From Parvicella tangerina (GTDB lineage Bacteria; Bacteroidota; Bacteroidia; Flavobacteriales_D; Parvicellaceae): DNA of 64,000 nucleotides. Below the pieces are notes generated by a model that worked only from the letters and a program-made list of their open reading frames with translations, was not told the DNA's origin and did not search any database. Below, piece by piece: positions 26,202 through 39,794 of the stretch (positions within the stretch are counted from its first letter, which is position 1; each line of letters begins with the position of its first letter). The stretch lies in assembly GCF_907165195.1 (NCBI RefSeq), contig NZ_OU015584.1, forward strand, positions 620,001-684,000. The letters are read 5' to 3'. Position numbers and translations under genes: made by a program.

Positions 26202-26228
26202 AAAAAAAGGAGGCTCAAAAGCCTCCTT
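26201..26228 (-). terminator. Rho-independent terminator of the SprB-repeat gene
   Basis: On the - strand, an AAGGAGGC / GCCTCCTT hairpin (8-bp stem, 6-nt loop) is followed by a run of eight T. It lies 5-32 nt after the stop codon of the giant gene and separates it from arsC. Confidence 0.85.
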
Positions 26229-26232
26229 TAAC

Positions 26233-29200
26233 TTATTTCACTAGCGTCACATGACCTCGATATTCTTTAACTTCTCCATCAATGTTTCTGGTTTTGACCA
26301 CCCAAACATAGACGTCTGTTTGCGACATCACATTATTATAAGTACCGTCCCATTCATCATACGGGTCATAGCCTTCGTAGATTAACTGTCCCCATCTGTT
26401 GAAGATGTAGAACTCATAGTTGTCTTCATCAATTCCAATTCCAATGGGTCTGAAAGTGTCGTTCTCTCCATCTCCATTCGGACTAAAGGCATTTGGTGTA
26501 TAGAAAGTATAATCTCCTTCAATAAAGATGGTTTCTGTATACTCACTTGTACATCCGTATGAACTCGTTACCAATAGTGTTACATCATAGTACCCAGTAT
26601 CGTTAAACACATGTGTTGGTAGCGTAATCAAACCAGTAGTGTTTTCCTCACCGTTATATTCAGTTTGAGGGTCACCAGTCATTAAGAAACCATCACCGAA
26701 ATCCCAATCATATTGATAACCTCCTGTAGAGTTATCTATAAATGTAATTTCTGGCGTTAGAATCGTTGTGCTTGACGGGTCTGCTGTAAATTCGGCATTT
26801 GGAACTGGGAATACCTCGATGAAGTCCGAATTAGAAACCTGAGTAGAACAACCTTCTGCACTTATTACGTTCAAGCATACATCATAGCTTCCAGCATCGT
26901 CAAAGGTGTATGAATAGCTGGTATTTGTTCCAGATGATTCATAAACTCCATCACAATTGATGTCGTACTCATAGGTTACTCCAATATCAGAGTTTGCAAT
27001 GAACTGCGCGTTGAATGGTTCACAACCACTTGAATCAACAGCAGATAAGAATGCAACAGGAAGTGCATTAATACTTATTTGAGTTGAGTCTACTGCATCA
27101 ATTGAACAACCATCACTCAAAGTAACGTAATACCATGTTGGGGTCGTTGGAGAAACACTAGCAGTTGATAAATCATTCACAGTTGTGGCGGTAACAGCAT
27201 TATTGAATTCGTCTTGCCAACTAAAGGTGTAATCTGCGGGTACACCACCTGTGCCTAGAGCTGTAATGTCAAAGCTATCACCATCACAAATAGAAGTTGA
27301 AGGCGTAACATCCAAAGCAAGTGGCTCTCTAACATTAATAGAGATGCACTCTTGGGATGATAGACAGCCATTATCATCTTCAACCCTAAAACAGTAGTCA
27401 GTTGAAGTTGTAGGGTTCACTAAAATTGGTCCTTGTCCAGTGAACCCAGCAGGAACCCATTGGATGTTATAAGGAGCTGTACCCCCTTGTCCACTTGCCC
27501 AGATTTGAGTATCCTCTCCATAACAAATTGTGGTTGAGCCATCAGGAACAGCAATCAATGGTGTAGGTTCAATCACATCAACGCAACTTGAAGCTGTACA
27601 CCCATTCGGATCAGTAACCGTCACACAATAGATACCGTCACTCAAAGCCACAGCTGTTTGGGTCTGCTGATTGTTACTTGAGGCGTCCCACAGGTAATCC
27701 ATTGCTGAAGCATCAAATATCCCTGAAGGATAAACCGAAGCACTACCGTTGGAAAGGCCATTGCATGAAGGTCCAGTAAAGATAATGCTATCAATCTGAG
27801 GACTAGCTTGATTAATCATTGTCTGATCGATAGTCATCGCGCAACCGTTCGCATCCGTAACAGTAACTTCTTGTAGTCCAGGACACATCCCATCGTTCAT
27901 GCTTGATGTTGGGTTATTTCCGTTAGACCATGCATACGTATATGCTCCGGTTCCTCCTGTTGCAGAAACAGATGCTTCACCGTTGCATTGCTCACATGTT
28001 GGATGATCAAATGTGGCGAAAACGGGAACTATTTGTGTTGGTTCTGTTACAACATAAGTCTCTGACGCAATACACCCATTTGCATCAGTGAGATCAAGGG
28101 TATAAGACCCTGCACCTAATCCCGATGCAGAAGAAGAGGTACTTGCGGAATTCGTCCATGAATACACATAGAATGGTGTACCTCCTGTGGTGTTCACTGA
28201 TATAGCTCCATCAGTTCCTGTAAAGCATGTTACATCCGTTATAGATTCTACCATGCTTAGCGCGTCAGGCTCAGTAATTGTAACACTGGCTTGCGCATTG
28301 CAGTTGTTTGCATCAGTAACGGTAACAGTAAATGTGCCTGCACATAAACCTGAATTTGAGTTTTGAGTAGGTGCAGCACCACTATTCCATGAATAGCTGT
28401 ATGGCGTGACACCACCATTAGCAGCAGCTAAAGCCGTACCGTCACAATACGTATTACAAGTAGCATCAGTTGATTGAATAACGGCTGCATTAAGTGAATT
28501 TGGCTCAGCTACACATAATACGTCCGATGCGACACATCCTGCTGCATCTGTGGTAATGAGCGTATAACAATCACCATCCAGATTTGTTGCTGTGGTTGCT
28601 CCGGTCAATACTGAAGTCCCTGACCCATCAATAATCTCATTTGTCAAGGTGCCTGAACCGCCTGACGATGTAAATTCAACTGAACCATTTCCAGCTCCAA
28701 AACATGTTACATCAACAGCAAGTATTGGAGTAACAGTAGGACCTGCAATATCATTGATACATAGCACTGTGTCCTTAACACAGGCGTTTCCATCTGTTAC
28801 GGTGAATGTGTAGCATCCAGCAAATAAGCTCAACGCACATGCTCCTGTTTGAGTGTTTGGATCATTCCATTGATAGGTATATGGGGCTGTCCCGCCATTT
28901 ACATTTGCACAAATCTGACCGTTATCTTGACCACAGTTAGAATTTGTAATATTCGCACTAAGGTTAATGTCAGTTGGCTGATTAATTACAACGGTTTCTG
29001 AAAGTTGACAACCATTATCATCGGTTATTTGAACTGTATAGGTACCTGCACATTCATTAGAGAATGCTGCTGTAGTAGCGAATGTGCTGTTATCCCATTG
29101 AAATGAGTATGGCCCAGTACCTCCTGATGCACTTACGTTGGCTGAACCATCACAAGATTGATAACAACTTAAGTCAGTTGTAGAAGTACTTGCAGAAAGT

Positions 29201-32200
29201 GCAGTTGGTTCAGTCAAAGATACACTACTAGAAGAAGAACACCCATTCCCATCCGTTACGGTCATAGTATAGGGTCCAGCACAGAGGTTGGTTGCCAAAG
29301 AAGTAGTACTCACACCACTTGTCCAAGAATAATTATATGGAGCAGTACCTCCTACTGCTGACCCCTGAATAAACCCATCGCAGAACCCATTACAAGAGAT
29401 ATTACCAGTTTGATCTATCGTAGACGTAAGTTCAGTTGGTTCTGTCAATGTAACAGATTCTGTAGCAAAACATCCATCATCATCAGTAATGGTAACTGTG
29501 TAAGTTCCAGGACATAAATTTGATGCAAGGCTGCCAGTCTGATTACCGGTTGAAGCATCCCACTGAAACGAGAATGGAGCATTTCCTACATCACCAAAGG
29601 CCTCAGCTTGGCCGTCACAAGCGTTAAAACAAGTAATGTTTGTCCCATTTATAATTCCAGTTACCTGCATAGGTTGAAGGATTGCTATATTGTCAGTGAA
29701 GGTACAGCCATTCGCATCAGAAACATTAATTCCGTAGTTGCCAGCGCATAGTCCATTAACTGTTGAACTTGTTCCCAAGGAGTTATTAGTTGCATCCAGC
29801 CAGTTGATAGAATATGGAGTAGTACCACCAATAATTGTTATATCTGCATCACCATCGCAATACCCGAAACAAGAGGCGTCATTCGTATTAATGTTGTAGG
29901 CAAGTACATCGGGTTCAGTAATTGTCACGGAAGTACTTGCGTTACAACCAAGGTCATCAGTTATCGTTACTCCATATGTTCCTGCACCTAAGTTACTTGC
30001 TGTTGGAGTTGTTTGAGATCCAGCATTAGCATCCCACAACACCGTGAAACTTGTCCCATTGCCAGCAGTCATATCTACAGTTGCTTGTCCATCTGTGAAT
30101 CCATTACAACTAACATACGTAAATGCCGTAATATCTGCCACAGGACCTCCAAGGTCTGATACCTCTACACTAATTTGTTCTTGGCAGTTGTTTGCGTCAG
30201 TAACAGTTACTACATAAGTAGAAGCAACAAGGTTTGCTGCACATGAGTTCGTAGATCCATCTGGCCACAGGTAATTAAAAGAACCGGTACCACCAGAGGG
30301 AGTAACACATGCTGTACCATCCGCTTGTTGACAATTGGCATTAGTTACAGTAGAATCAATTGTGATAGCTGTAGGTTCAGCAATTGCACCCGATGCTGTC
30401 CCAGTACAGCCATTGTCGTCAGTTACTACAACATCGTAAGTTCCTACGCATAACGATCCTGCCGCAACTGAAGTTTGATTGAGAGGGTCATTCCAAGAAT
30501 ACGAGTAGGGTTGTGTGCCACCAACTGCTACAGCTTCAGCAGTTCCATCACAGGAAGCAAAACAAAGTGCGTCTGTAACTACCACATTAACTTGAACTGA
30601 AGTCGGTTCAGCAATTGTTCCTGTATTACTAGTAGACAAACATCCATTGGCATCAGTAACTTCTACGTAGTAATCACCAGCAGGTAAGCCTGCAGCTTGT
30701 ATAGCAGTTTGACCAGTTAAAGCCGTTCCTGAAGTTGCATTATACCATTGATAAGTATAGGGTGCTGTTCCTGTTCCGCTCATGGAAACATCAATCGTTC
30801 CATCAGCACCACCGTTACAAAGTACATCAGTAATTGTACCAATTGTAGCAGTTCCAGGCGGAATATCACCCACTGTTGCTTGAGCTGTTTGTATACAGCC
30901 ATCAGCGTCTGTTACAGTAACATCATATAATCCAGGGGTTAACCCTGTAGCAACATCAGTTGCTTGTGACGTTGGAGTCCAGTTATAACTAAAAGGAGAA
31001 ACACCAGCAGCTGTAACCGAAACCGATGCACTACCTGTGCCAGTTCCACAGAATGCATTAACAGTTGAAGTTGATAACTGAATTTCATCTGGTTCACCAA
31101 TCGTTGCTGAAGCTGTAACAGTACAATTATTGTTATCAGTAACAGTAACCTGATATGTTCCAGGAGCTAGTCCTGTTGCCGTAGCGGTTGTCTGGTTAGC
31201 ACCGTCACTCCATAGATAAGTATAAGGAGCTGTACCTCCGCCCGCAGTTACAGTAGCAGTTCCATCTGTAAAACCAAAACATGTTACATCTGTTGAGGCT
31301 GTGATAGAAGCATTTAATGCGGTTGGTTCATCAATGGTGACTGAGACAGAGGCTTGACAACCGACAGCATCAACCATTGCTCCGGAGTAGCAGCCTGCGG
31401 AAAGATTTAATGCAGAGGCAGTAGTTTGACCTATCGGATTTCCACTACAATCTTCCCAGTTGTATGTATAGGGAGCAGTACCGTCAGTCACTTGAATCTG
31501 CGCAAACCCATCATTACCTCCATTACAACTCACATCGGTTTGTGTTAGAATAGTAACTGTTGGAGCACCAAGGTCTTGAACGCATATATTGAGCGTCTCA
31601 ATACATCCATTCCCGTCAGTAACGTCCACATCATAACACCCAGCAAAAAGTGATGTCGCATTAGCTGTCGTTTGAGAGCCAGCATTTGCATCCCATTGAT
31701 AAGTGAAAGGAGCATCTCCAGAAACAATTGTCACTGTGGCATCTCCATCATCTTGGTTACAGTTTGATCCATTTGTAGTTTCACCAAGCACAAGTGCTGT
31801 AGGTTCTGTAATTGTATATGACTGAATGACAGAACAGCCATTAGCGTCAGTAATGGTAGCTTCATAAGTGCCAGCACAAAGATTCGATATTGAAGAAGTT
31901 GTTGACAATGCAGGGTCATTCCACTGATAAGCGTAGGCTCCGGTACCTCCGCTTGGAGCTGTGTTCGCAATCCCATCACAAACTCCGTTACAACTCGCAT
32001 CTGTTTGTGTCGGTGCATTGACAACTTGAGTTGGTTCAACGAGAGTTATTGTCTCAGTGGAGGTACAACCATTGTTATCAGTAACGCTTACGGTAAAAGT
32101 CCCATCACATAGTCCTGTTACTCCTGCCGTGGTTTGAGACCCAGCCGCAGCATCCCAGGCATAACTGTACGGTGTTGTGCCGCCAGTTACTGTGACGTTT

Positions 32201-35200
32201 GCCGTACCATCACAAGCACCAAAACAACTAATATCCGAACCGTTATAATCTGAAGTTACGGAAGTTGTCAGGGTTAGCTGGGTAGGTTCGTTAACTGTAT
32301 AAGTGCTTGAGGTTTGCGTGGCTCCATTTTGATCTGTCACTACAACGTAATAATCTCCTGCCGTTAAGTTCGTTGCAGTAATACCATTCTGACCAAGAGC
32401 AGTACTGGTTGAAGCATCAAACCATTCATAAGTATAACCAGGAACCCCTCCTGAAACGGCTATTGTTATTTCTCCTCCAGTTCCGTTAAAACAAACTGCA
32501 TCTGTGATTGTTTCTACGATAGTTAATGAAGTTGGTTCGTTGATGGTTGTGCAAACAGTATCTAAACATCCTTTTGAATCTTCCACAATAACAGAGTAGT
32601 CGCCAGCTGATAGACCAGTTGCTCCAGAGGAGTTTTGACCAAGGACTGTACCAGGAGGACAGCTATTGTACCATTGATAAGAGTAGGCTGGTGTCCCTCC
32701 GGATGCAGAAGCAGTGGCAGTACCGTCCGAGGCGCCATTAATGGTTACGTCACTGTTGGATGTCATGGTAGCGACTAAAGGTGTTGGTTCCAAGATGGTA
32801 ACAACAATGTTGTCCGTACAGTTATTATCATCAGACACACTTACGTTGTAGTCTCCTGCGCAGAGTCCAGTTACAGAAGGTGTCCCTTGTCCAGTTAATG
32901 GAGCAGGGTTCCATGTATAAACGTATGTGGGGGTTCCTCCAACTGCCTCAATAAGCGCAGTACCATCACAATAATCAGCACAGGAGGCACTTGCCGCTGA
33001 GATTAGGTTTAGTGTAGGCCCCACTTGATCGCTGACTCCTTGAACAGCTGTTCCAGTACAACCTTCATCATCTGTTATGGTAACGGTATATGAACCTGAA
33101 GGAACAGCGTTAATATCTGCTACAGGATTACCTCCGTTATCAACCCATGTTTCTGAGATGTAATTCCCTGATCCTCCAGTTGTTGTAGATACGGATACTA
33201 CCCCGTCTGAAAGTCCACAATTAGCATCAACAGCTGATGTAGTAACGACAATTGCAGCCGGTTCACTTACAACAACAGACCCGTCTGAAGAACAACCGTT
33301 CACATCGGTTACTTCAACGTAATAGGTCCCTGCGGATAAACCTGTCTGAGAAGAGCCTGTACCGATGCTATTGGAAAGTAACCCATCATCAAACCATTCA
33401 AATGTAAGAGCACCAGTCCCTCCAGTAGCAGTTGCGTCTACAGCACCTGTTGATCCTCCGGCACAAGTTGCATCTATCGATGTAGGCGATACAGTAACTA
33501 ATGCTGGTTCGTTTATTGTGATACTCAACGTTGCAACACATCCAACGTTGTCGGTTGCTGTAACGTCATATTGACCAGCCTCGAGCAAGTTAATGTCTTG
33601 CATGGTAGAAGAAAACCCGTTTGGACCAGTCCAGCCATAGGTGAATGGAGCAGAACCCCCAGTCGTTGAAATATCAATGGAACCATCAAATGAACCGTTA
33701 CAAAAGGCGTTAACGTGAGTTTCTGAAAGAGTAGGGGCTCCAGCATCTGATATAGTTGCGGTAGTAGACTCACTACAACCGTTGTTATCTGTTACGGTAA
33801 CAGTGTAGGTCCCCGCTAGAAGATTACTCACTGTGGCAGAGCTTCCTGCTGGATTTGAGGATGCATCCACCCATGCATAAGTATAACCTGAGGTTAAAGT
33901 GCCTCCAGTCGCGGTAACAGATACCTCACCATCTGGCTGACCGCAGTTACTGTTTACGCTTGAAGGGGTTAAATTAATGGCTGTTGGTTCATTAACGTTG
34001 ATGCTTGAAGTCTCAGAACATGAGTTAGCGTCCGTTACTACGACATCATACGTGCCTGCTGGTAATCCTGCAACATTGGCGGTTGTTCCAATGGAGGTGC
34101 CGCCATCAAACCATTCAAATGTAAGAGCACCAGTCCCTCCAGTAGCCGTTGCATCTACTTCGCCATCGTTACTCCCATTACATAAAGCATCTGTTGCAGA
34201 TGGCGTGATCGAAATAGCAGATGGTTCTCCGATGGTGACACTTTCAGAAACCGTACAACCGTTATTGTCAGTAACGTCTAAAGTGTATGTGCCAGCTGAT
34301 AAAACACCATTCAAATCTTCAGAAGTTGGTCCATGTGTCCATGAGGTAGTATATGGAGCAGTACCATCAGTGATTGTCACATCAGCTGAACCATTCGAGC
34401 CTCCGTTACAAGAAGCATCGGTTCCAACAATAGTAACCGAAAGAGGGTTAGGGGCGCTTACAGATACCGAAGCAGAGGCCGTACAGCCACTAGCATCCGT
34501 TATCGTAACATTTGATGTTCCAAAACACAGAGACGTAGCTTGTTGTGTAGTCTCTGAATTATCCCAAGCATAGCTAAAGGGTCCAGTACCTCCTGTCATA
34601 GTCGCAGTTGCCTGACCGTTACAATCACCAGGGCAAAGAACATCCGAATCAAGAACCGTAGATGCAGTTGGGTCTGGATCAGTTCCTATTGTCACAGAAA
34701 GCACATCAGTACATCCTGCATCATCTACTGTTACTGTATATGTTGTGCCTCCTGTTAATCCAGATACTGACGATGTGTTTTGTCCTGATCCTGGAGCTGG
34801 AGACCAGTTAAAAGTTGGGGAACCTGCTCCTCCAGAAACCGAAATGTCTGCTGTTCCGTCATCAACCATAGAACAGGAAGCGTTTGTTTGGGCTACTAGA
34901 GAAACCACGGGGCCAGCAAGATTACCCACTGAAACAGTGGCTGTTCCAGTACAGCTTTGGTCATCGGTGACCGTTACCGTGTAAGATCCTGCTGACACGG
35001 CATTAGGATCAGTCACTGGATTAGAAGAAGCATCCGTCCAAACCGTTGAAACATAATTTCCTGAACCACCTGTTATATTTGTTACTGAAAGGGTTCCATC
35101 TGAACCACCACAGCTAGCATCTGTTGAGGAAGCTGTTACGTTAATAGCAGGGGGTTCATTAATCGTAACTGTTGCTGTAGCTGTACAATTCTCTGCATCA

Positions 35201-37422
35201 GTGACGGTAACAATATAGGTTCCAGCAGCAACACCCGTATGGTTTTGTCCTGCTCCTAAACCTCCGTTCCACGAATAAGTGTAAGGTGCTGTACCTCCAG
35301 TAGCGTTATTTGCAGTTACAGTTCCGTCTGTTAACCCAGAACAAGAAACATCCGTTGCCGTTGCCGTTATTGCTAATACTGGTGGTTCATTAATTGTGCC
35401 AGCCCCTGTAACTTGACAACCATTAATATCCGTTACCGTAACATTGTAGGGTCCAGGACAAAGGTTGGTCAGCGTAGCTCCTGTTCCTGCAGCTCCCCAA
35501 TTATAGTTATAACCAGAGGTTCCTGCACCGACAGCGGTGATTGATCCATCACAGTTACCATTACAACTAACATCTGTTGGAGTTACAGTTACTGTAGGAT
35601 CAGGATTAATGGTTACTGGGATTGTAATGTCATCTGTACAACCATTAGCAGTTGTGGTTAGTGTAATATTGTGTGTCCCTGCAGCTCCGTAGGAAACAGT
35701 CGTAGGAGATCCCGTAGCAGTTGTTGGAGTTCCACTTGGCATTGACCAAGAATAAGTTCCAGCTGTCCCTGTATTAGTGAGTGTTAATGAGTTTGTAGAT
35801 AAACACTGACTTCCTGTGATAGAAAAGTTGGGGTTGGGGAGTGGTGTAACAGTTACGGTTGAAGTTTCCGTGTCGTTTGGACACCCCGTTGTAGAGCCAG
35901 TAACCGTATACACGGTTGTTGAAGTAGGGCTAGCAATAACAGAGGTCCCTGAAGTTGCACTTAGCCCTGTTGCTGGAGACCACGTATACGTAGACATGCC
36001 AGATGCAGTTAAGGTGACGTTATCACCTTCACATATCGTTCCGCTATTAACAGAAACGGTAGGTGCAGGGGCTACATTCACCGTCACATAACCTATAAGA
36101 TCACAACCAGAAGCATTGTCTCCTGTAATAGTATAAGTTGTAGTGGTTGTCGGATTGGCTGTAACGGTTGCCCCAGTAGTAGCACTCAATCCAGTTGCTG
36201 GAGACCAGGTATAATTTGATCCACCAGCAGCAGTTAAAGTTGCGTTACTTCCGCTACAGATGTCGACTGTAATATTAGATCCAGGACCAACACTGCCAGA
36301 CAAAGCACTTGAGCCAGTCATTGAAAGATTTCCTCCTGTATTTACAGTAACTGTAACGTCATCATCAGTAGCATTGGGACATAATGTATTCCCAGTTGAT
36401 GAAGTTACTGTGTAGGTTGTTGTGGTGGTTGGTGTAGCAGTTACTGTTGCTCCTGATCCAGAAGATAATGTCCCAGTGGGTGTCCATGCGTATGTGCCAT
36501 TTCCTCCAGTTGCAGTTAAGTTTGTAGACTCTCCTAGACAAATGGATACGTCTGGTCCAGCATCAACAGGTATTTGCACACCATTTCCAGCAACAATTGT
36601 ATAGTCACAAACATCTCCACCCCAACCATCGATCATGATATAATAGGTATCACCAGGTGTTAATCCATTTGCGGTTAGCGTTGCATCGACCATATTACCT
36701 GGGTTCCAATCTAAGTATTCAACAACCGCTCCTGCGCAGTTAGTCGCGCTAAACACCAAAAGTTGAATTCCATCACCCCAAGAACAGTTAGATACCGTTA
36801 CATCAAAAGTCATTGATGTTCCTGACGCAACAAAAGAGATAAAAGAGTTATTCTCAATTGATCCAGAAAAGGTCCCATCCAAGTTTGACCATGAGTTGTC
36901 TGTGTAGGAACTACTCGTATTACCGCAATAAGCACTAAGATCACATATTGGTGTGGCCGTAGCACAACTGTTTCCTGCTGCAGGATTTGAACCACATCCT
37001 GGAGGTGGTGGAGGTGGAACATACGTGTTTGTAGTAAGCGTTGTAGTACAACACCCAGTTGCTGTTCCGCACCCAGAGTTTGTGTTGTAGTTAGCATAGA
37101 AAGTTCCACTCGAACTGGGGGTAAAAGTTAATGGAGAGTTCCCTTGAGCAACGAGTGTTCCCCCGTTTGAACCACTGTAAATCGTAATCCAACCACCGCA
37201 ACTATTAGAAACGGTATAAGTGCTTCCATCTGATATGCTATATAAGGGACTGTATTCAGTTTGATAATTACAAGTACTGATGGTGACCGAAGTGCCGTTA
37301 GTAGTGCTAGCAGTAGCCGACCCCCACGAGGATGTGTTTTGGCACTGAGCCAAATAATTGTTGCTCAAACTAACAAGAAATATCAATGTCACTATCGAAA
37401 CGAATATTTTGTTTTTTTTCAT
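26233..37422 (-). CDS. Giant SprB-repeat adhesin with T9SS type B sorting domain
   Basis: 3729 aa from the ATG at 37422, which gives a signal peptide (MKKNKIFVSIVTLIFLVSLSNNYLAQ); longer in-frame readings overlap the upstream gene. After an N-terminal Cys-rich region and a CDYTIVAG-type beta domain come four Ig-like modules (ICLGESTNLTATGG, ICEGDNVTLTASG), then about 34 SprB repeats (xDVSCNGxxDG...GGTxPYxYxW...AGTYxVTVTDxNGC...INEP), two Ig-like and two PKD modules (DYDWDFGDGF-type), and a C-terminal type B sorting domain beginning TPNAFSPNGDGENDTF and ending VTLVK. SprB of Flavobacterium johnsoniae is a mobile gliding adhesin secreted by the T9SS; the same role here is inference. Last gene of the sigma-factor operon. 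Confidence 0.93.
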   Translation of the reverse strand: MKKNKIFVSIVTLIFLVSLSNNYLAQCQNTSSWGSATASTTNGTSVTISTCNYQTEYSPLYSISDGSTYTVSNSCGGWITIYSGSNGGTLVAQGNSPLTFTPSSSGTFYANYNTNSGCGTATGCCTTTLTTNTYVPPPPPPGCGSNPAAGNSCATATPICDLSAYCGNTSSSYTDNSWSNLDGTFSGSIENNSFISFVASGTSMTFDVTVSNCSWGDGIQLLVFSATNCAGAVVEYLDWNPGNMVDATLTANGLTPGDTYYIMIDGWGGDVCDYTIVAGNGVQIPVDAGPDVSICLGESTNLTATGGNGTYAWTPTGTLSSGSGATVTATPTTTTTYTVTSSTGNTLCPNATDDDVTVTVNTGGNLSMTGSSALSGSVGPGSNITVDICSGSNATLTAAGGSNYTWSPATGLSATTGATVTANPTTTTTYTITGDNASGCDLIGYVTVNVAPAPTVSVNSGTICEGDNVTLTASGMSTYTWSPATGLSATSGTSVIASPTSTTVYTVTGSTTGCPNDTETSTVTVTPLPNPNFSITGSQCLSTNSLTLTNTGTAGTYSWSMPSGTPTTATGSPTTVSYGAAGTHNITLTTTANGCTDDITIPVTINPDPTVTVTPTDVSCNGNCDGSITAVGAGTSGYNYNWGAAGTGATLTNLCPGPYNVTVTDINGCQVTGAGTINEPPVLAITATATDVSCSGLTDGTVTANNATGGTAPYTYSWNGGLGAGQNHTGVAAGTYIVTVTDAENCTATATVTINEPPAINVTASSTDASCGGSDGTLSVTNITGGSGNYVSTVWTDASSNPVTDPNAVSAGSYTVTVTDDQSCTGTATVSVGNLAGPVVSLVAQTNASCSMVDDGTADISVSGGAGSPTFNWSPAPGSGQNTSSVSGLTGGTTYTVTVDDAGCTDVLSVTIGTDPDPTASTVLDSDVLCPGDCNGQATATMTGGTGPFSYAWDNSETTQQATSLCFGTSNVTITDASGCTASASVSVSAPNPLSVTIVGTDASCNGGSNGSADVTITDGTAPYTTSWTHGPTSEDLNGVLSAGTYTLDVTDNNGCTVSESVTIGEPSAISITPSATDALCNGSNDGEVDATATGGTGALTFEWFDGGTSIGTTANVAGLPAGTYDVVVTDANSCSETSSINVNEPTAINLTPSSVNSNCGQPDGEVSVTATGGTLTSGYTYAWVDASSNPAGSSATVSNLLAGTYTVTVTDNNGCSESTTATISDAGAPTLSETHVNAFCNGSFDGSIDISTTGGSAPFTYGWTGPNGFSSTMQDINLLEAGQYDVTATDNVGCVATLSITINEPALVTVSPTSIDATCAGGSTGAVDATATGGTGALTFEWFDDGLLSNSIGTGSSQTGLSAGTYYVEVTDVNGCSSDGSVVVSEPAAIVVTTSAVDANCGLSDGVVSVSTTTGGSGNYISETWVDNGGNPVADINAVPSGSYTVTITDDEGCTGTAVQGVSDQVGPTLNLISAASASCADYCDGTALIEAVGGTPTYVYTWNPAPLTGQGTPSVTGLCAGDYNVSVSDDNNCTDNIVVTILEPTPLVATMTSNSDVTINGASDGTATASASGGTPAYSYQWYNSCPPGTVLGQNSSGATGLSAGDYSVIVEDSKGCLDTVCTTINEPTSLTIVETITDAVCFNGTGGEITIAVSGGVPGYTYEWFDASTSTALGQNGITATNLTAGDYYVVVTDQNGATQTSSTYTVNEPTQLTLTTSVTSDYNGSDISCFGACDGTANVTVTGGTTPYSYAWDAAAGSQTTAGVTGLCDGTFTVSVTDNNGCTSTETITLVEPTQVVNAPTQTDASCNGVCDGIANTAPSGGTGAYAYQWNDPALSTTSSISNLCAGTYEATITDANGCSVIQSYTITEPTALVLGETTNGSNCNQDDGDATVTIVSGDAPFTYQWDANAGSQTTANATSLFAGCYDVDVTDGNGCIETLNICVQDLGAPTVTILTQTDVSCNGGNDGFAQIQVTDGTAPYTYNWEDCSGNPIGQTTASALNLSAGCYSGAMVDAVGCQASVSVTIDEPTALNASITASTDVTCFGFTDGTATVTAGGGTAPYTYLWSDGANQTTATATGLAPGTYQVTVTDNNNCTVTASATIGEPDEIQLSTSTVNAFCGTGTGSASVSVTAAGVSPFSYNWTPTSQATDVATGLTPGLYDVTVTDADGCIQTAQATVGDIPPGTATIGTITDVLCNGGADGTIDVSMSGTGTAPYTYQWYNATSGTALTGQTAIQAAGLPAGDYYVEVTDANGCLSTSNTGTIAEPTSVQVNVVVTDALCFASCDGTAEAVAVGGTQPYSYSWNDPLNQTSVAAGSLCVGTYDVVVTDDNGCTGTASGAIAEPTAITIDSTVTNANCQQADGTACVTPSGGTGSFNYLWPDGSTNSCAANLVASTYVVTVTDANNCQEQISVEVSDLGGPVADITAFTYVSCNGFTDGQATVDMTAGNGTSFTVLWDANAGSQTTPTASNLGAGTYGVTITDDLGCNASTSVTITEPDVLAYNINTNDASCFGYCDGDADITIIGGTTPYSINWLDATNNSLGTSSTVNGLCAGNYGINVSDANGCTFTDNIAILQPMQVTGIINGTNITCFNACDGQAEAFGDVGNAPFSFQWDASTGNQTGSLASNLCPGTYTVTITDDDGCFATESVTLTEPTELTSTIDQTGNISCNGFCDGFIQGSAVGGTAPYNYSWTSGVSTTSLATNLCAGPYTMTVTDGNGCSSSSSVSLTEPTALSASTSTTDLSCYQSCDGSANVSASGGTGPYSFQWDNSTFATTAAFSNECAGTYTVQITDDNGCQLSETVVINQPTDINLSANITNSNCGQDNGQICANVNGGTAPYTYQWNDPNTQTGACALSLFAGCYTFTVTDGNACVKDTVLCINDIAGPTVTPILAVDVTCFGAGNGSVEFTSSGGSGTLTNEIIDGSGTSVLTGATTATNLDGDCYTLITTDAAGCVASDVLCVAEPNSLNAAVIQSTDATCNTYCDGTALAAANGGVTPYSYSWNSGAAPTQNSNSGLCAGTFTVTVTDANNCNAQASVTITEPDALSMVESITDVTCFTGTDGAISVNTTGGTPFYVYSWTNSASTSSSASGLGAGSYTLDLTDANGCIASETYVVTEPTQIVPVFATFDHPTCEQCNGEASVSATGGTGAYTYAWSNGNNPTSSMNDGMCPGLQEVTVTDANGCAMTIDQTMINQASPQIDSIIFTGPSCNGLSNGSASVYPSGIFDASAMDYLWDASSNNQQTQTAVALSDGIYCVTVTDPNGCTASSCVDVIEPTPLIAVPDGSTTICYGEDTQIWASGQGGTAPYNIQWVPAGFTGQGPILVNPTTSTDYCFRVEDDNGCLSSQECISINVREPLALDVTPSTSICDGDSFDITALGTGGVPADYTFSWQDEFNNAVTATTVNDLSTASVSPTTPTWYYVTLSDGCSIDAVDSTQISINALPVAFLSAVDSSGCEPFNAQFIANSDIGVTYEYDINCDGVYESSGTNTSYSYTFDDAGSYDVCLNVISAEGCSTQVSNSDFIEVFPVPNAEFTADPSSTTILTPEITFIDNSTGGYQYDWDFGDGFLMTGDPQTEYNGEENTTGLITLPTHVFNDTGYYDVTLLVTSSYGCTSEYTETIFIEGDYTFYTPNAFSPNGDGENDTFRPIGIGIDEDNYEFYIFNRWGQLIYEGYDPYDEWDGTYNNVMSQTDVYVWVVKTRNIDGEVKEYRGHVTLVK
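33387..33429 (-). repeat. 43-nt exact repeat, copy 1 (within SprB array)
   Basis: Identical over 43 nt to 34104-34146, in the same frame and encoding the same piece of SprB modules 10 and 7 (ATGGTGALTFEWFD). The copies are 717 nt (239 codons, three modules) apart, while the surrounding repeats have drifted at the DNA level. Confidence 0.85.
34104..34146 (-). repeat. 43-nt exact repeat, copy 2 (within SprB array)
   Basis: Second copy of the tract at 33387-33429, in SprB module 7. Identity at synonymous positions suggests a recent duplication or gene conversion inside the array. Confidence 0.85.
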
Positions 37423-37459
37423 AGTTAAATGATGTTCTAAAATGTGGTAATTGGTAAGG

Positions 37460-37801
37460 TTAGTCAATTGTTTTGGTTGCCATGACTGAGTAGCCATTAT
37501 CGTTGAAGAACATTTCAACGTCTTTAATAGGGCTTGACGTTTCGTTTCCTTCGATTAGGAATGTTACTGCTTTTCCCTCAGTTTTTGTTGAGATAACAGT
37601 AAAGCCAAATTGATCCTTTAGTAGCTTTGAGGCTTTGTTGGTGAAGTAACTCCCTCCTTCATCATTATCTTTTAACTCAACCGTTACTTCGTATTTGAGC
37701 GTTGAAACCTGGCTTGATAAATGAATTTTAAGTAAAGAAACAGAGAAAGCACCTCCTGAAACGAGCAGTGCCAGCAAAGTCATTAGAATATGTTTTTTCA
37801 T
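37460..37801 (-). CDS. Small secreted or membrane-anchored protein, unknown
   Basis: 113 aa with an N-terminal hydrophobic segment (residues 5-26) that acts as a signal peptide or anchor. The rest reads as strand-helix-strand-strand-helix-strand (KYEVTVELK, NKASKLLKDQFG, FTVISTKTE, AVTFLIEG, PIKDVEMFFNDNG, YSVMATK), a ferredoxin-like pattern similar to heavy-metal-associated domains but with no CxxC, so metal binding is not supported. It lies 13 nt after the PKD/sorting-domain gene and 37 nt before the giant adhesin gene, so it is very probably part of the same operon. Confidence 0.75.
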   Translation of the reverse strand: MKKHILMTLLALLVSGGAFSVSLLKIHLSSQVSTLKYEVTVELKDNDEGGSYFTNKASKLLKDQFGFTVISTKTEGKAVTFLIEGNETSSPIKDVEMFFNDNGYSVMATKTID

Positions 37802-37814
37802 ATCTATCAGTAGT

Positions 37815-39134
37815 TTATTTTAGAAGTAAAACAGCACCTTTGTATTGTTCAGATTTTCCTTCTGAATTAACAAGTGACACTACCCAAATATAAGTGCCTT
37901 CCGAACAATTCTCACCGTTTTGTTGATTTCTTCCGTCCCATTGTTGATTAATATTTTTCGATTCGAAAATTAACCCGTGACTCTGGCTGTAAATTGTCAT
38001 GGTAAACTCAGTGTCCATTGTTTTAAGTGCCTCAGGAATAAAGAAATCGTTGATGCCATCTCCATTAGGAGTGAATGAATTTGGAGCCAGCAAGTTGTAA
38101 TCTTCTTTGATCGTAACCTTTTTGGTGGTTTTTGAAGAGCATCCGTTTAGATTTGTGCTGCTCAATGATATGTTGTAATAGCCTTTTTTCTTGAAGTTTT
38201 TGATTGGACTTATTTCTTCAGAAGATGTTCCATCTGCAAAATCCCAATGATAATTCGCTAATGGTTCTAAGCTCGATAATCTAATGCTGGGTATAACTTC
38301 GTTGTCCAGATAGTCAACTTCGAAAGTTGTGTTAGGAGCTTCTAAAACATCGATCACGATCTCTTTTGACTTTGAAAGTACGCTTCTGTCTTTTGAAGAA
38401 GTAACAATCAACGATACAAAGTATTTACCAGAAGCATTGTATTGATGTGAAATTACGCGTTCATTACTGTATGTTCCATCTCCTAAATTCCAAGCATAAA
38501 TTACATCAGGCTGCTCAATGGTTTCTAGCGAAACTTCCTCACCTGGACAAACCTCAACATTTCCTGCTAATATCACAGCGCTTGGAACGGCAACTTCTAT
38601 GGGTTTATCATTTTGAGTGTTCAGCTTTTTATCAGAATTAATTTCAGTTAATTGATTGTCTTCGTTAGCAGTATTGTCCGAAGAAGAGTTAGAAGAATTT
38701 GAGTTGAAATCTTGTTCGATGTTTTGGTTTGATGAGATTTCGTTGTCAACTTTTTCCTTCGAAGGAGTCTTTGTAGGCGTTTTGAAGGTGTCGTCCTTAT
38801 CAGTTTGAGTAGGTTCGTGGAACCTATTTTCTTCAACCGAAGTAATCACTTTTTTCTCTAAGTCATCCGTAGAATTAACCTCTTCAGCAACATTCTGCGC
38901 TTTGAAAGCGGTTGCTATACTAGATGAATTGTGTGAAAGCCATACTATAGATCCTACCGTTATTACAGCAATAGCTGCTGCGCCACCCAGCCACTTAAGA
39001 GTTGATCCATTAGCTCCAGGGGTCTTAGTTTGGGTTAGTTTGTGTTCAAATGAGGACCAGTCAGCTTCAGTAAAATCATACTGCTGCTGATTTAGCTTGT
39101 CCTTAATTATGTCGTCTAAAAAGTCATTTTTCAT
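37815..39134 (-). CDS. Membrane-anchored PKD protein with T9SS type B C-terminal domain
   Basis: 439 aa. The N-terminal 40 residues are cytoplasmic-looking (MKNDFLDDIIKDKL, FTEADWSSFEHKL), as in Bacteroidota proteins encoded next to ECF sigma factors. A single membrane helix follows (about 46-66, AAAIAVITVGSIVWL), then a Ser/Asn/Glu-rich linker (about 85-170), two PKD-like modules (AWNLGDGTYSN and YHWDFADGTSSE) and a C-terminal sorting-type domain starting LAPNSFTPNGDGINDFF. It overlaps the sigma gene by 4 nt. The position and N-terminus suggest an anti-sigma or sensor role; the sorting-type domain without a cleavable signal peptide is odd. Confidence 0.85.
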   Translation of the reverse strand: MKNDFLDDIIKDKLNQQQYDFTEADWSSFEHKLTQTKTPGANGSTLKWLGGAAAIAVITVGSIVWLSHNSSSIATAFKAQNVAEEVNSTDDLEKKVITSVEENRFHEPTQTDKDDTFKTPTKTPSKEKVDNEISSNQNIEQDFNSNSSNSSSDNTANEDNQLTEINSDKKLNTQNDKPIEVAVPSAVILAGNVEVCPGEEVSLETIEQPDVIYAWNLGDGTYSNERVISHQYNASGKYFVSLIVTSSKDRSVLSKSKEIVIDVLEAPNTTFEVDYLDNEVIPSIRLSSLEPLANYHWDFADGTSSEEISPIKNFKKKGYYNISLSSTNLNGCSSKTTKKVTIKEDYNLLAPNSFTPNGDGINDFFIPEALKTMDTEFTMTIYSQSHGLIFESKNINQQWDGRNQQNGENCSEGTYIWVVSLVNSEGKSEQYKGAVLLLK

Positions 39135-39700
39135 TGACCTGAAATTTTTTTCTCTAAAATTGTTTTAATTCTTGCTCGAGCCTTGGATAAATTAGATTTT
39201 GATGTGCCCACGGAAATATCAAGTTCATCTGCAATTTCCTGATGGGTCAATCCGTCCATAACATAGAGATTGAATACGGTTCTGTACATAGGAGAGAGCT
39301 CTTGCATGGCATCTACTACATCGCCTACTTTTAATCCTTTGTATGCAGCTTCCTCCGTGCCTTGACTTTCGTAATAGCCGGATTTAGGTTGGTACACACT
39401 GGTGTCATCAGTCAGAAGTTCGTTCTTTCGTTTTCTGATCGCATCAATCGCAGTATTTACAATGATTCTTCGCACCCAGCCTTCAAAGGAGCCGTTGTCA
39501 TCATATAATCCAATTTTTTCAAAGACCTTTATGAAACCATCTTGTAAAATATCAGTGGCATCTTGTCTGTCCTGAGCGTAGCGCATACAAACACCAAGCA
39601 TAGGACTGAACAGCATCTCGTAAACTTTTTTCTGACATTTTTTGTCATTTTGTTTACATCCCTTTATCCACAGATCTAACTCTTCTTGAGTTGGTTTCAT
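39131..39700 (-). CDS. ECF RNA polymerase sigma factor
   Basis: 189 aa sigma-70 family protein with region 2 (YEMLFSPMLGVCMRYAQDRQDATDILQDGFIKVFEKI, then FEGWVRRIIVNTAIDAIRKRK) and region 4 (LSPMYRTVFNLYVMDGLTHQEIADELDISVGTSKSNLSKARARI, a helix-turn-helix). It heads a probable operon with the PKD/sorting protein, the 113-aa protein and the giant adhesin. The family directs core polymerase to a small regulon; autoregulation of this operon is plausible but not shown. No TAnnTTTG element is visible upstream, which would fit an alternative promoter. Confidence 0.95.
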   Translation of the reverse strand: MKPTQEELDLWIKGCKQNDKKCQKKVYEMLFSPMLGVCMRYAQDRQDATDILQDGFIKVFEKIGLYDDNGSFEGWVRRIIVNTAIDAIRKRKNELLTDDTSVYQPKSGYYESQGTEEAAYKGLKVGDVVDAMQELSPMYRTVFNLYVMDGLTHQEIADELDISVGTSKSNLSKARARIKTILEKKISGQ

Positions 39701-39794
39701 CGTTCAAGTGATAATCTAACGAGGTAGAATTTAATGGTTGCCTCTTGTGATAGAAAAAAATAAATAAATTAATCTGCTAAGCCGTGAGAATTTT

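Follow-up and report, generated by a model that had tools for sequence, protein, structure and literature searches.

Giant adhesins secreted by the T9SS serve in gliding and attachment. To our knowledge, little is known about how cells decide on making them. A locus of Parvicella tangerina raises this question in a direct form, with a giant adhesin gene lying in the same run of genes as an ECF sigma factor: does the sigma factor serve this adhesin only, or does it command a wider set? The window considered here is the whole stretch of DNA that was analyzed, 64,000 nucleotides in length (positions 620,001 to 684,000 of contig NZ_OU015584.1, renumbered from 1), and belongs to a complete genome of 3.98 Mb. 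The relatives used for comparison are Flavobacteriales, the closest named one being an uncultured Cryomorphaceae bacterium. According to the reading preferred here, which we consider likely, the sigma factor would read its own promoter and drive both the operon and a set of adhesin genes in trans, and its anchored partner would be an anti-sigma factor with a T9SS-like sensor.

Architecture of the Locus

The locus consists of four genes which, like all features described below, lie on the minus strand. The first one (39131..39700) encodes an ECF sigma factor of 189 aa that contains regions 2 and 4, with Pfam/NCBIfam matches to Sigma70_r2 (3.4e-16), r4_2 (1.3e-15), and TIGR02937 (above its cut-off), as found in this group of sigma factors. 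The second gene (37815..39134) overlaps the first by 4 nt, and its product of 439 aa is an anchored sensor and probable anti-sigma factor, in which Pfam, an alignment of 34 sequences, and AlphaFold2 delimit a two-helix domain, a transmembrane helix, a disordered spacer, two PKD domains, and a type B-like CTD. After 13 nt follows the gene of a secreted protein of 113 aa (37460..37801, an ORF modeled with AlphaFold2), and, 37 nt further on, that of an SprB-repeat adhesin of 3729 aa (26233..37422 from its ATG). In the latter, Pfam/NCBIfam find the SprB repeat in 27 stretches (E 3.9e-183), together with PKD and CHU_C, between a signal-peptide-like stretch at the N-terminus and a type B CTD at residues 3642-3729. 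An intrinsic terminator at 26206..26229, read from 26229 to 26206 and made of 10 pairs and a T run, closes the operon and is the strongest among those found. The mdh gene is divergent and lies 5′ of the sigma gene, and an arsC-like gene is found beyond the terminator.

The genes, their strand, their junctions, and the strong terminator had all been given in a preliminary description of this DNA and were confirmed in every position. Pfam/NCBIfam also agree with the two PKD modules and the sorting-type C-terminus that had been proposed for the anchored protein, finding two PKD_4 domains and a CHU_C / T9SS type B sorting domain (TIGR04131). The scores for TIGR04131 are 37.0 bits in the sensor and 52.9 bits in the adhesin (cut-off 35), and thus both proteins end in a type B CTD.

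What that description overlooked is a predicted ECF promoter (39718..39742) that ends 17 nt 5′ of the ATG of the sigma gene. It is composed of a -35 element GGCAACC (39742-39736), a 14-nt spacer, and a -10 element CGTT (39721-39718), and it was recognized from ortholog upstream regions and as a match in the genome (G000:659717-659742). In the window, no such motif is present between the pair of sigma and anchored-protein genes and the linked adhesin, which is consistent with a single transcript, and neither an Rfam match nor a tRNA is found anywhere within it. This layout supports the assignment of the four genes to one operon.

The Anchored Protein as a Candidate Anti-Sigma Factor

How might such a sigma factor be held in check? 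In the AlphaFold2 model, built from a 34-row alignment, the anchored protein starts with two helices (residues 4-16 and 23-34), which are followed by a transmembrane helix (48-67). Residues 67-177 are disordered, and after them come three beta domains that are predicted well. The transmembrane helix (38934..38993) is indicated by the hydropathy of the orthologs as well as by AlphaFold2. The putative anti-sigma domain comprises residues 1-45 (39000..39134), as judged by the alignment, AlphaFold2, and ECF adjacency; the two-helix domain is predicted with moderate confidence (pLDDT 58-78), and Trp26 (W26) is invariant within it in the 34 aligned orthologs. In none of these 34 orthologs does Pfam find a class I anti-sigma domain (zf-HC2, RseA_N, or FecR). 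With its approximately 45 cytoplasmic residues, two predicted helices before the membrane, and a gene paired with that of an ECF factor, the protein compares with class II, without a sequence link to CnrY. As modeled, this is probably a class-II-like anti-sigma domain that would bind the sigma factor.

The distribution of the module in the host genome also bears on its role. A profile of the N-terminal 70 residues has three matches with E<0.01 in the whole genome, all directly behind ECF genes, which supports the sigma/anti-sigma pair of the preliminary description. Two further ECF genes (L081, G000:3676301-3678000, and G000:466416-466784) are each followed by a protein with the same N-terminal module, and the partner at L081, of 385 aa, likewise has a T9SS CTD at its C-terminus. 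Among the ORFs of the ortholog loci, which had been selected by their sigma genes, 102 of the 103 module matches adjoin an ECF gene, the exception being an anchored-protein gene in an incomplete locus. The module is also joined to other C-terminal halves beside related sigma genes. This combination of ECF linkage and varied C-terminal halves is what one would expect of an anti-sigma module whose sensors can be exchanged, and the anchored protein is, by these sequence comparisons, most likely an anti-sigma factor. In two relatives (L065 and L074), the two-helix motif is duplicated in tandem and could provide two sigma-binding units.

An alternative is that the sigma factor is a general regulator of envelope stress or growth state, with an anchored protein that is not an inhibitor and adhesins that are part of a wider regulon. 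Such a role would agree with the lack of any known anti-sigma domain by Pfam and with the matches of the promoter motif that lie ahead of genes for other secreted proteins or of unrelated genes (L281, L293, L296, and L301). Nevertheless, the ECF linkage of the N-terminal module and its fusion to other C-terminal halves beside related sigma genes argue against it, and we regard this alternative as quite unlikely.

The Pair and Its Adhesin in Relatives

Sigma orthologs are present in 47 of the 60 relatives, and the pair is conserved across the order: the sigma gene is followed by the anchored-protein gene, overlapping it or at most tens of bases apart, in essentially every ortholog locus examined. 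The partners are of about 430 aa, with PKD domains, a CTD, and a single transmembrane helix in the vicinity of residue 50; of the 34 that were aligned, 33 have a PKD_4 match and 31 a CHU_C match by Pfam. Carriers of the pair include Cryomorpha ignava, Fluviicola, and Lishizhenia tianjinensis, the last one without a linked adhesin, as well as Crocinitomicaceae, Vicingaceae, and Salibacteraceae MAGs. Some database titles (Glaciecola, Chryseobacterium gleum, Kuenenia, Chitinophaga pinensis), attached to CP034120.1 (L133) and to the MAG loci L092, L100, L103, L124, L125, L129, L134, and L146, do not fit the Flavobacteriales-type mdh/sigma/sensor content that most of these have, and the sequences are likely mislabelled.

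The adhesin is a less constant companion. A giant T9SS adhesin, counted as linked if a contiguous CTD or SprB gene has at least 500 aa, is found downstream of the pair in 36 of 96 loci (a number that includes a few genomes counted twice), upstream in 6, and on neither side in 41, with 13 that are not judgeable. In a genome of the same genus, arsC comes directly after the pair, and the adhesin and the 113-aa gene are absent at the locus. With an adhesin in 42 of the 96 loci, and none in a similar number that includes the same genus, linkage is frequent but not obligatory. Thus, of the gene order that the preliminary description proposed to look for in related genomes, the sigma/anchored-protein pair is conserved, whereas the adhesin is often missing.

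It might be thought that the region beside mdh merely shares its ancestry and that operon and regulon are accidental, as mdh lies divergently upstream in many loci. However, the linked adhesins vary in type and size and are upstream instead of downstream in one group, and still the association and the promoter recur; in addition, the positional enrichment in trans described below is independent of synteny. Such an accident appears extremely improbable.

The Promoter Motif at the Sigma Gene and before Other Adhesins

Upstream regions of the sigma orthologs have in common GGCAACY-N14/15-CGTY, which is the layout of an ECF promoter. The pattern GCAACY-N13-16-CGTY occurs in 72 of 93 of these regions, whereas dinucleotide shuffles give 0.15 on average and the reverse strand gives one, and within the searched range of 13-16 the spacer is 14 or 15 in all matches but one. 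Since the motif is directly ahead of the sigma orthologs, autoregulation would be the simplest reading. The other ECF genes examined in the genome lack the full motif within 200 nt. At two that are related, the GCAAC half is present with a different -10, and thus some cross-recognition is possible. Between the pair and a linked adhesin, the motif is found in few loci, all of them with wide gaps (the best are L157, L068/L091, and L072).

A weight matrix, trained on the ortholog upstream regions with the window and the same-genus relative left out, was applied to positions -200 to +60 of CTD genes, while exact patterns were used for the whole genome. Scores of at least 10 are reached in 11 of 37 CTD genes. 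Among 67 control genes, only one scores as high (Fisher 3e-5), and among 74 controls that were reversed or taken from the opposite strand, none does. The exact pattern GGCAACYN{14,15}CGTYW has 11 matches genome-wide, one of which is that of the sigma gene. Four are located 17-121 nt 5′ of CTD genes of 685, 1307, 1363, and 1429 aa (L283, L285, L286, and L289). Another is 32 nt ahead of the gene of a 115-aa secreted protein that is followed by an SprB gene (L284), and one is 560 nt ahead of a CTD gene of 1719 aa (L290); the rest are found before a 414-aa secreted protein (one) and elsewhere (three). Overall, 6 of the 11 belong to the sigma gene or are situated 17-121 nt ahead of a CTD/SprB gene or of its small leader gene. 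When the target is set as the 150 nt before each of the 43 CTD genes, the chance of five target positions among ten matches is <1e-12, with the small-leader case L284 included (four strictly). The total count of the motif is not clearly above that of a backwards-pattern control; the enrichment is positional only.

The same trend is observed in other genomes. For instance, 5 of the 12 matches in G010 are within 100 nt of CTD genes, and a motif before CTD genes, as in the host genome, is also found in G015, G008, G057, G004, and G045, the last one from another family. In G004 and G045, it is in addition ahead of cassettes of a small secreted protein and a giant protein like that of the window. 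In G054, of the same order, no T9SS CTD gene is behind the motif in the three regions examined. Among genomes without the sigma factor, which have 16-32 CTD genes each, G013, G035, and G051 have no match and G005 has two. In the host genome, the cargo with strong motifs falls mostly into one CTD subclade (7 of 10 rows, compared with 2 of 31 others, p=1.6e-4), an enrichment that is descriptive only because the subclade was picked after inspection of the tree. At one site in G045 (L272:233-420), the motif stands twice in tandem ahead of a single SprB gene.

These results bear on the claim of a self-contained operon, in which the sigma factor would serve the linked adhesin only, in cis, and the anchored protein would sense its export or cell contact and free the sigma factor. 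The tight junctions and common terminator would fit this claim, as would the contiguity of the adhesin in 42 of the 83 determinable loci, spread over several families. On the other hand, the motif is ahead of many other adhesins and the pair persists without an adhesin in 41 loci, and for these reasons the sigma factor probably regulates in trans; an arrangement closed on itself is very unlikely. What finds support in the earlier claim is that the adhesin would be under this sigma factor: the linkage recurs in several families, and the operon starts with a conserved promoter of the sigma type. Thus, the reach of the sigma factor probably extends from its own gene and the linked adhesin to a regulon of adhesins in trans, with this locus as its probable head, and the whole has the look of a general means of controlling T9SS-secreted adhesins.

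What the Sensor May Perceive

The sensor half (37818..38585), periplasmic or exported, contains PKD1 (residues 184-262), PKD2 (263-345), and the CTD (346-439), as delimited by Pfam/NCBIfam and AlphaFold2. Among solved structures, it comes closest to fragments of the Aureispira protein GhpA, which is a giant protein of the cell surface. It does not have an N-terminal Sec signal peptide for free export, and has the cytoplasmic domain and transmembrane helix instead. The main rival explanation of its function is surface display: the CTD would carry the PKD domains through the T9SS while the N-terminus remains in the inner membrane, and contact or a ligand would free the sigma factor, as in clostridial RsgI. 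This would suit the likeness of the sensor half to a T9SS adhesin, the CTD as the best-conserved part of the protein, and the disordered spacer, of about 110 residues in the AlphaFold2 model. However, DGxND, a motif of type B CTDs, is retained by 39 of 92 sensor CTDs (42%), compared with 78 of 111 cargo CTDs (70%), and K/R occurs in the last three residues in 71 of 92 and 109 of 111, respectively; the comparison is rough, as the cargo set was collected with a profile built on sensor CTDs. By these losses, the sensor CTD is probably no working export signal in many relatives, which speaks for a role in binding rather than export there, and we see surface display as unlikely.

As for the origin of the sensor CTD, a recent copy of the CTD of the linked adhesin was considered and rejected, since the two do not group. 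The sensor CTD does not cluster with the CTDs of motif-bearing cargo either, and mimicry of specific cargo is thus not supported.

Type B CTDs bind PorP-like outer-membrane proteins (PMC9143113), and thus a CTD on the anchored protein could compete with cargo for them. The signal that it senses would most likely be T9SS cargo traffic. In the mechanism that we propose, the sigma factor would act at GGCAACY-N14/15-CGTY and thereby switch on all four genes of the operon, its own included, and would reach in trans a set of further type B CTD/SprB genes for adhesins that have the same promoter. The two-helix cytoplasmic domain, of class II and CnrY-like layout, would tether the sigma factor to the membrane. 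The role of sensor would fall to the PKD-PKD-CTD half, with its resemblance to the tail of a T9SS adhesin. Competition between its CTD and real cargo for a T9SS partner would then make sigma activity track free secretion capacity or cargo load. This sensing model is the one we prefer, and it is put forward tentatively.

Relation to Known Systems

In P. gingivalis, PorA/PorXY/SigP ties a CTD protein to a T9SS sigma factor (PMC4800418, PMC7712824). The system proposed here is similar in that an autoregulated ECF sigma factor is tied to the T9SS with a CTD protein as upstream signal. There, however, SigP is activated by a two-component system, PorA stands by itself as a surface protein, and the genes controlled are those of the T9SS machine, whereas here the operon itself carries no porX/porY, the CTD is built into a membrane protein whose gene adjoins that of the sigma factor, and cargo adhesins are predicted as targets. 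Similarly, the SM6 promoters of F. psychrophilum link an ECF/anti-sigma pair (THC0290_1774/1773) to T9SS genes (PMC9723704) and share with this case the ECF-type CGT -10 box and a pair that is among its own targets. By contrast, SM6 targets are T9SS components, and remFG-sprCDBF uses sigma54 (SM4) and SM5 promoters in that species (PMC9723704). The sprCDBF operon of F. johnsoniae also has a giant SprB-repeat adhesin with a type B CTD (PMC9143113); it includes the PorP-like sprF, which is absent beside the present adhesin, and no sigma gene is named in the account of the operon in that source.

Regarding the inhibitor, CnrY-CnrH of class II also has a short two-helix cytoplasmic domain in a membrane protein whose gene adjoins an ECF gene (PMC4598750, PMC7406223). 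The likeness is one of layout, without sequence similarity, and in that system another protein, a metal sensor in the periplasm, provides the signal. RsgI of C. thermocellum is likewise a membrane anti-sigma factor with an outward sensor that governs genes for extracellular proteins (PMC12203970, PMC4711584), in a Gram-positive host and with SigI-family factors, carbohydrate sensors, and other domains. Unlike in FecI/FecR, no FecR domain is matched by Pfam. Among open-access papers, none was found that describes an anti-sigma factor carrying a T9SS CTD.

In a survey, class I anti-sigma domains were beside only 6% of Bacteroidetes ECFs (PMC7406223), which leaves most of them without a known inhibitor, and the N-terminal module is a ready candidate for part of them. 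It is conceivable, although we would not call it probable, that a secretion-signal domain serves here as the sensor of an anti-sigma factor and matches a class of T9SS adhesins to traffic in an FlgM-like manner, and that a class II-type domain could explain part of the inhibitor-less Bacteroidetes ECFs. With the candidate target genes that the predicted promoter singles out, regulon, inhibitor, and signal are testable in cultured relatives, among them Cryomorpha ignava, which has the pair with a linked adhesin, and L. tianjinensis for the pair alone.

Neighbors of the Adhesin Genes

No sprF (PorP-like) gene is beside the 3729-aa adhesin, and 22 PorP_SprF genes are found elsewhere in the host genome. 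About 14 CTD genes are immediately followed by an sprF-like gene of their own and, bar one weak exception, lack the sigma motif, and motif-bearing CTD genes are mostly without such a neighbor. Counted by sprF status, the motif is present in 10 of 26 orphan CTD genes and 1 of 13 sprF-linked ones (p=0.046), and a confinement of the motif to cargo without its own sprF is suggestive only. Another giant SprB adhesin, with a length of about 4350 aa (L185, G000:429923-443000), has its own sprF and no clear sigma motif.

The 113-aa protein has no Pfam/NCBIfam match and no relative in the 60 genomes. The early guess of a ferredoxin-like fold gains support from an AlphaFold2 model computed from the single sequence, which predicts the order beta-alpha-beta-beta-alpha-beta with a mean pLDDT of 74. 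Small secreted proteins of about 110-200 aa recur directly 5′ of giant adhesin genes (L170/L284, L222, L224, L269, L052-L054, L059, L062, L065, L074, and 37460-37801 of the window). They belong to several unrelated sequence families, at least two of them other than that of the 113-aa protein, and it is possible that they are adhesin-specific escorts.
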